NCBI GenBank assembly: GCA_026709625.1
Contig: JAPOSR010000019.1
Location: 1-64,000 of the forward strand
DNA from: Chloroflexota bacterium
Lineage (GTDB): Bacteria; Chloroflexota; Anaerolineae; Aggregatilineales; Phototrophicaceae
Length of the DNA stretch: 64,000 nucleotides
Direction: 5' to 3'
The position numbers and the translations under genes were made by a program. Under the pieces are notes generated by a model. That model ran no database searches and was not told the DNA's origin. It saw nothing but the letters and a program-made list of their open reading frames with translations. How positions within the stretch are numbered: position 1 is the stretch's first letter; each line of letters starts with the position of its first letter. Positions 1 to 48,262 of the stretch are shown here, piece by piece.

Positions 1-149
1 TGGGGAGAGGTAGATGCGGGGGGAGGGGCACCCAGCCCCCAGACCGAGGAAAAGGGAGGTTTTCCCGCGCTTCCGCAGGACGTTAGCCCCCTCCTCATTT
101 TTTGGGGGTGGGGGTAAAGCAACGCGTACCCACCAAAATCACCACTCCC
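1..149 (-). repeat. MITE-like repeat, copy A (cut by window edge)
   Basis: Read on the minus strand this begins with GGGAGTGGTGATTTT, then GGGTACGCGTTGC, a C-rich tract, a TGAGGAGGGGG block, a conserved core around CTGCGGAAGCGC and a second G-rich tract. The same order recurs at about 20.3, 28.3, 35.2, 38.3, 41.6 and 48.1 kb. The distal end is diverged or lies outside the window. The terminal repeat overlaps the last codons of the neighbouring hydrolase gene. Non-coding in all frames as far as I can see. Confidence 0.75.
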
Positions 150-20276: not shown

Positions 20277-20451
20277 GGGAGTGGTGATGTTGGTGGATAC
20301 GCGTTGCTTTGCCTCTACCCCAAACCCCTTGCCCCAACAATGAGGGAGGGGCTACCATGCTGCGGAAGCGCAGGCAAAACTCCCCTTCCCTCGTTCTGGG
20401 GGCAAGGGGCCGGGGGATGGGGGCTTGGCCTTGCCCCCATTCGCGCACTGG
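20277..20451 (+). repeat. MITE-like repeat, copy B
   Basis: Starts GGGAGTGGTGATGTTGG and GTGGATACGCGTTGC, then a C-rich stretch, TGAGGGAGGGGCTACCATGC, the GCGGAAGCGCAGG core, CTCCCCTTCCCTCG and a long G-rich tract. The right terminal repeat is degenerate, so the end is approximate. GGGAGGGG and CCCCTTCCC can pair as an internal hairpin. Lies between the exporter stop and the sulfhydrylase start. Confidence 0.8.
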
Positions 20452-28210: not shown

Positions 28211-28354
28211 TGAGCGTTCCCGCTGATGCGCCCCCCCCCAAAAAATGAGGGAGGGGCTACCATACTGTGGAAGCGCAGGGAAAACTCCCCTTCTCTCGTT
28301 CTGGGGGCAAGGGGATGGGGGCTTGGTTGCTATATCCACGCAAATGCCACTCCC
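28211..28354 (+). repeat. MITE-like repeat, copy C
   Basis: Left end is truncated to CTGATGCGCCCC; the rest is intact: TGAGGGAGGGGCTACCAT, GGAAGCGCAGGGAAAACTCC, G-rich tract, and a good right terminus (TATCCACGCAAATGCCACTCCC), which is the inverted complement of the left terminus of the other copies. That right end defines the element boundary well. Confidence 0.8.
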
Positions 28355-35133: not shown

Positions 35134-35266
35134 TGAGGAGCGCCAAATCGGCTGAATGCGCGTTGCCTTGCCGCCACCCAAAGTGGGGAGAGGCTTTACA
35201 TGCTGCGGAGGCGCTGGAAAAACGCCCCCTCCTTCGTTCTGGGGGCTTGATTGCCATTGACACTGC
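35134..35266 (+). repeat. MITE-like repeat, copy D (degenerate)
   Basis: Weak match over the whole element: GCTGAATGCGCGTTGCC on the left, GTGGGGAGAGGCTTTACATG and CTGCGGAGGCGCTGG in the middle, CGTTCTGGGGGCTTGATTGC on the right. The C-tract is short and the termini are decayed, as expected of an old copy. Boundaries are approximate. Confidence 0.6.
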
Positions 35267-38287: not shown

Positions 38288-38331
38288 GGGAGTGGCGAAT
38301 CTGCTGGATGCGCGTTGCTTTGCCCCCCCCC
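38288..38331 (+). repeat. MITE-like repeat, copy E1 (left-end fragment)
   Basis: GGGAGTGGCGAATCTGCTGG, then ATGCGCGTTGCTTTGCCCCC, and then the match stops. The first part is base-for-base the same as copy E2 at 41559, and differs from the other copies (GTGATGTTGG or CGATTTTTTG), so E1 and E2 are a closely related pair. Confidence 0.75.
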
Positions 38332-38401
38332 AGCTCCCCGACCGCCTGTGTCTACGCGGCGCAACATGAGGGTTTGCGCGCTGGAGATGGCGGCGCTTAG
38401 C

Positions 38402-41558: not shown

Positions 41559-41652
41559 GGGAGTGGCGAATCTGCTGGATACCCGTTGCTTTGCCCCCCC
41601 CCCCACCCCAAACCCCTCCTCCCAAGAAGAGGGAGGGGCTACCATGCTGCGG
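41559..41652 (+). repeat. MITE-like repeat, copy E2 (right-truncated)
   Basis: GGGAGTGGCGAATCTGCTGG, then ATACCCGTTGCTTTG, 12 or more C, ACCCCTCCTC, GAGGGAGGGGCTACCATGC and TGCGG, then the match breaks off. With copy E1 it brackets the iolB plus peroxidase-fusion segment in the same orientation. Confidence 0.78.
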
Positions 41653-47973: not shown

Positions 47974-48027
47974 TGCTGACCGTTATTGTACCCACAGCCC
48001 TGCGCGCGGCAAGCCCCCGCCGCTGCC

Positions 48028-48207
48028 GGGAGTGGCGATTTTTTGTGGATACGCGTTGCTTTTACCCCCCCCCCACACACACACACAAAATGAGGGAGGG
48101 GCTACCATGCTGCGGAAGCGCAGGCAAAACTCCCCTTCCCTCGCTCTGGGGGCAAGGGGCCGGGGGATGGGGGCTTGGTTGCCATATCCACGCAACCAGC
48201 CACTCCG
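48028..48207 (+). repeat. MITE-like repeat, copy F (most complete)
   Basis: 180 bp with both termini: left GGGAGTGGCGATTTTTTGTG then GATACGCGTTGC; right, read inward on the other strand, CGGAGTGGCTGGTTGCGTGG then ATATGGCAACC. Between them: a run of C interrupted by (CA)n, TGAGGGAGGGGCTACCATGC, the GCGGAAGCGCAGG core, CTCCCCTTCCCTCG, and GGGGGCAAGGGGCCGGGGG. The C-tract can pair with the G-tract, and GGGAGGGG with CCCCTTCCC. No open frame of note. Confidence 0.85.
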
Positions 48208-48262
48208 CCGCTTTCGTGGCAAAATCTCGCCTCTCCATGACCTGACGACGGGATTGCGCAGC

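Follow-up and report, generated by a model that had tools for sequence, protein, structure and literature searches.

An IS1-type MITE family, apparently orphaned in its Chloroflexota host, with an unusual core shared within the genus

The window is a 64,000-nucleotide stretch (C75:1-64000) of a 3.24-Mb draft genome of the Anaerolineae, and it holds seven copies of one repeat (Table 1). Isolate labels suggest that the host and its congeners are sponge-associated; for the congeners that share its core, the records are metagenome-assembled genomes under the titles Chloroflexota bacterium or Anaerolineae bacterium. An earlier note on this DNA had described the seven copies as a MITE-like, self-folding family. 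Our repeat search recovered all of them in the same places, and we verified the motif positions in each copy individually. Copy F carries every motif that had been ascribed to it: GGAGTGGC and GTGGATA at both ends, a C-tract facing a G-tract, GGGAGGGG opposite CCCCTTCCC, and the constant CTGCGGAAGCGCAGG. Many copies, in several species, have GACCGCCTGTGTCTACGCGGCGC or a close relative in place of the loop of the first hairpin; this alternative loop is found at 38330-38372 of the window, at L019, L056, L083, L087, L092 and L106, and, in other species, at L037-L039.

Table 1. Copies of the element in the window and parts of its most complete copy
Feature	Position	Strand	Description
Copy A	1-149	-	Nearly complete, at contig start; left end 119-149, weak right end 3-24
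Copy B	20277-20435	+	Left end and core; right end lost
Copy C	28220-28354	+	Left end lost; right end 28333-28354
Copy D	35136-35266	+	Decayed throughout
Copy E	38288-38372	+	Left end, then only the alternative loop GACCGCCTGTGTCTACGCGGCGC
Further copy	41559-41652	+	Left end and first half only
Copy F, left flank	48020-48027		CCGCTGCC; decayed target-site duplication, 6/8 match with 48208-48215
Copy F, whole element	48028-48207	+	180 bp; most complete copy of the window
Copy F, left terminal inverted repeat	48028-48058	+	GGGAGTGGCGATTTTTTGTGGATACGCGTTG
Copy F, core, first half	48065-48104	+	C-tracts, then GAGGGAGGGGCTA; a CA run replaces part
Copy F, spacer hairpin	48110-48124	+	CTGCGGAAGCGCAGG; separates the two core halves
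Copy F, core, second half	48130-48173	+	Inverted relative to the first half; G-quadruplex motif 48148-48173
Copy F, right terminal inverted repeat	48185-48207	+	TATCCACGCAACCAGCCACTCCG
Copy F, right flank	48208-48215		CCGCTTTC; pairs with 48020-48027 as the decayed target-site duplication

The family extends well beyond the window. With up to three mismatches allowed, the genome contains 100 matches to the left end and 74 to the right end, and none to the reversed patterns; 35 left-right pairs span 144-203 bp, which leaves about 139 distinct copies. Since the left end of copy F itself falls below this stringency, the true number is higher than 139. A consensus was built from 47 copies, gathered from pattern searches and retrieved stretches of the genome. 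It is 179 bp long; the proposed size of roughly 180 bp needs correcting to the range of 144-203 bp for the paired copies. The copies diverge by approximately 10% from this consensus. The element is short, non-coding and bounded by terminal inverted repeats. The earlier description of copies that range from intact to decayed holds, with the correction that part of the apparent decay consists of end-truncated, inverted-core and tandem-core forms. The core is inverted between the same ends at L090 and L099, and at L109 a core unit is present in tandem triplicate, suggesting recombination inside the palindrome. An Rfam search matched nothing except one tRNA.

Mobility of the element is demonstrated by target duplications and by empty sites. 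Among 73 copies with both ends, the 8-bp flanks match in at least seven of eight positions in 16 cases, compared with a mean of 0.29 and a maximum of 3 after shuffling. Other flank lengths gave lower counts in the same 73 copies (11 for 7 bp at six or more of seven, 3 for 6 bp and 2 for 9 bp). To find empty sites, we fused the two flanks of each of three copies (L014, L016 and L029), leaving out the element, and looked for the resulting sequences in the genus. The insertion at L014 is absent from G043, G023, G013 and G006. In G043, a sister species that is about 90% identical, the site reads CTCAACTGAGGAGAATCGCGTC with a single intact GGAGAATC, whereas two copies of GGAGAATC bracket the element in the host. 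The insertion at L016 is absent from G003, G007 and G046; in G043, the site has a short stretch that is not element-like. The site of L029 is complex: the gene beside it has, in both G023 and G007, a solo core devoid of the ends that lies upstream and directly adjoins its start codon (L038 and L142).

The GGnnnTG ends and the 8-bp duplication together are features that we take to point to the IS1 family, a reading that PMC6807381 supports. We searched for the transposase families Y1 (PF01797), IS256 (PF00872) and IS1. IS1 transposase matches are present in 18 of the 34 genomes of the genus, three of them above the curated cut-off, and scores with NF033558 reach 180 bits. Five genomes (G045, G012, G007, G041 and G023) contain a complete IS1-family element of approximately 795 bp (792-802 bp), and it is at the ends of these elements that the link to the repeat lies: seven of the ten ends are exactly GGGAGTGGTGAAT, and the remainder have one or two mismatches. 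All five have an A-rich slippery run (A7) at nucleotides 367-376, and in four of them InsA and InsB' are encoded in two frames with the switch at this run, as for a programmed frameshift. The element of G045 has a single frame throughout, yet it is interrupted by stops. Pfam finds Zn_ribbon_InsA and DDE_Tnp_IS1 just below their curated cut-offs, matching the InsA zinc ribbon/HTH and the InsB DDE transposase of an IS1 element. A second end type, GGGAGTGTCTAA...GTGGATA, occurs on IS1 remnants in G013 and G019 and on MITEs in G022, and the IS1 end of G001 equals the MITE end of G015 over the first 23 bases. One point against a simple match is that GTGGATA, the inner end block of the host element, resembles IS1 ends of the GGGAGTGTCTAA type more closely than those of the GGGAGTGGTGAAT type.

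In the host itself, IS1 is reduced to one scrap of approximately 51 residues (C3:65808-65960), and the MITE family therefore looks orphaned there. None of the host end matches that we examined encloses a gene. A long autonomous element was sought among 44 inward-facing pairs within 8 kb, nine of which are long; these are chance-looking pairs of separate MITEs. The one that was read fully, a 1126-bp pair on C19, begins with a mini copy of only 57 bp from end to end, after which comes another copy. Several of the congeneric IS1 copies are frameshifted or interrupted, and no target duplication is visible at the four copies with both flanks, which may be old or rearranged. In G017 and G022, contigs break at IS1 copies. 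For G015, which has at least 130 exact MITE ends, a protein search gave no IS1 transposase match, and we found no genome that combines many MITEs with a plainly intact matching IS1. We considered and rejected one further candidate for an autonomous element, a pair 1.7 kb apart in G015 that surrounds a DNA methyltransferase gene: it consists of two separate MITEs and has no duplication. The gene lies between these two MITEs with the outermost ends facing inward (L300:520-1344); given the lack of a target duplication the arrangement is probably due to chance, although a composite element is possible.

MITE and IS1 align at their ends only. The core between the ends, about 105 bp long, is built from two inverted hairpin units, CCCCCACCCCAAACCCCTCCCCCAAAATGAGGGAGGGGCTT and an inverted relative, around a short spacer. 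It is not IS1-derived; the IS1 elements have a G+C content of approximately 50% and no quadruplex motif. In a survey of 49 sampled loci with both core halves, the core occurs within the genus in two variants of IS1-type ends, in two unrelated inverted-repeat frames (GGAC(T/G)CTGTTGAAAA and AAGGCTTGTCCG) and with no visible frame. Taken individually, only five of the loci pass a 99% null, but identical end sequences return at different loci. For frames 4 and 5, we could not establish a consistent target duplication. Judged by their sequences, the spacers appear to track the frame and not the genome. Conversely, IS1-type ends in G015 enclose at least three unrelated interiors; several of these lie within the same ends at L302-L311, where L308, with the G-rich core, and L309, with another interior, show 8-bp duplications. 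A different recurring unit, TCCGACCTGCGGTCGG...GCGCAAGTTCATAACACGCTCTAG, holds one core half (L150-L225, on JADLHR contigs of isolate SJ484). Among the matches listed for the core-half pattern in other genomes, all are Chloroflexota; the strict core pattern was found in none of the 399 other Chloroflexota genomes sampled. The multiple frames per core, the multiple interiors per end type and the inverted and tandem variants suggest that ends and core are separable parts. We propose, tentatively and with more doubt than conviction, that the G-rich double-hairpin core might be a module exchanged among unrelated MITE frames (the IS1 type and at least two other inverted-repeat types) that can in addition spread or persist by itself in the genus, so that ends and cores would evolve as separable, recombining parts. 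Common descent of the core with later divergence of the frames stands beside exchange as a hypothesis.

The hairpins, the G-tracts and the placement of the copies bring to mind a regulatory or terminator unit that acts through a hairpin or a G-quadruplex and is maintained by selection. The copy consensus is predicted to fold along its whole length into a single long hairpin. As RNA, copy F has a strong predicted fold (z = -4.0; none of 200 shuffles is equally stable), and as DNA it reaches only z = -1.3. The motif (G3+N1-7)x4 is present in 33 of 47 copies, with about 0.2 expected from mononucleotide shuffles, so the suspicion that the G-rich arm could form quadruplexes is borne out at the level of the motif, and the G-tracts of the core would be quadruplex-capable to that extent. 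Furthermore, 55 of 58 classified copies are intergenic by our home-made gene finder. However, intergenic placement is also what tolerated insertions would give, and with 25 divergent, 27 tandem and only 3 convergent positions, the gene context speaks against a role as terminator. The divergent share exceeds the intergenic make-up of the window (about 27% by length), an excess that is no more than suggestive. Along the element, the copies of the genome show near-even conservation of about 0.9, as under neutral decay, and at both sites tested the insertions are limited to one species. We therefore consider selection for such a function unlikely.

Two other readings accept a mobile element and assign it to a different enzyme. 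The core, with its two inverted imperfect palindromes and variable spacer, resembles a REPIN and occurs without the outer ends at many loci; it could thus be the mobile unit of a REP/BIME/REPIN-type repeat moved by a RAYT, with the outer ends incidental. IS200/605-type movement makes no target duplications, whereas the host copies have 8-bp duplications precisely at the outer ends. RAYT was rejected as the mover because PF01797 has no match in the host, and its matches in the genus are weak and mostly lie inside large proteins; we give this reading the least credence of all. Alternatively, the ends might derive from another family that duplicates 8 bp, such as an IS6/IS26-like or IS256 element, and resemble IS1 by coincidence. 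GGnnnTG ends are indeed common to IS6/IS26 and IS1, and IS6/IS26 elements also duplicate 8 bp (PMC6807381). IS256 was rejected as the mover, since PF00872 has no match in the host and is rare in the genus. Near-identical 13-base ends on both sides of an IS1 transposase in five separate genomes make a coincidence very improbable.

The element is thus very probably an IS1-family MITE that was moved in trans by an IS1 transposase and now persists as fossil copies around a non-IS1 core. Its inverted ends of approximately 25 bp, an outer GGGAGTGGTGAAT followed by a TGGATA-like inner block, are those of the congeneric IS1 elements, and the transposase of such an element would have inserted the MITE and duplicated 8 bp of the target. 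The ends, the duplications and the empty sites are all present, as are IS1 elements with these ends; it is the matching ends that point to the IS1 enzyme as the likely mover. With the host transposase down to its scrap, the copies, at least 139 of them, would be decaying remains of past bursts. Between the IS1 ends lie the two inverted G/C-tract hairpin units, which represent a repeat module of the genus that exists in several frames and frameless. The spreading, non-autonomous, MITE-like element of the earlier note is supported by copy number, 8-bp duplications, empty sites and matching-end IS1 elements in congeners. Each check it had proposed gave a supporting result: at least 139 copies in the genome search, duplicated target sites, relatives that lack the L014 and L016 insertions, and, in the congeners, a transposase element with matching ends (an IS1-family element, the host having a scrap only). 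The earlier note named neither the parent nor the core as a separate module common to other frames.

Compared with the IS1 family (InsA/InsB', A-run frameshift, GGnnnTG ends), the MITE has the same terminal bases as the congeneric elements and an 8-bp target duplication, but it has no coding sequence and measures 144-203 bp, and its interior did not arise from IS1 by deletion. Known prokaryotic MITEs (Correia/NEMIS, RUP, Nezha, MITEAba12 and the Sulfolobus SM elements) are likewise short and non-coding with terminal inverted repeats, and they share target duplications, many intergenic copies and dependence on a transposase in trans. What differs here is the interior, a G/C-tract double hairpin that recurs in unrelated frames as well as by itself. 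RAYT-associated REPINs and BIMEs are intergenic and share the architecture of the core, in which a spacer of variable type separates two palindromic units in inverted orientation, but our host has no RAYT and its element has outer ends with 8-bp duplications. The GGGNATC repeats of Xanthomonas and Nostoc are abundant, intergenic, G-rich and capable of quadruplex motifs (PMC4692102). Those repeats are simple tandem heptamers, whereas the element described here is a dispersed transposon in which G-tracts on one strand are opposed to G-tracts on the other. A literature search for MITEs that occur in Chloroflexi or derive from the IS1 family found none among the papers it covered, and the one review of prokaryotic MITEs that we searched does not mention the IS1 family.

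The repeat is a new IS1-type MITE family, orphaned in its host, with an unusual shared core. It adds a family of at least 139 copies in an apparently sponge-associated lineage in which the transposase was then lost and the parent is known by its ends. If the core is truly exchanged, it would illustrate how a single structured sequence can travel with several transposition systems, and dozens of genomes from the genus are available to test both this exchange and the part of quadruplex-capable DNA in the success of a transposon.
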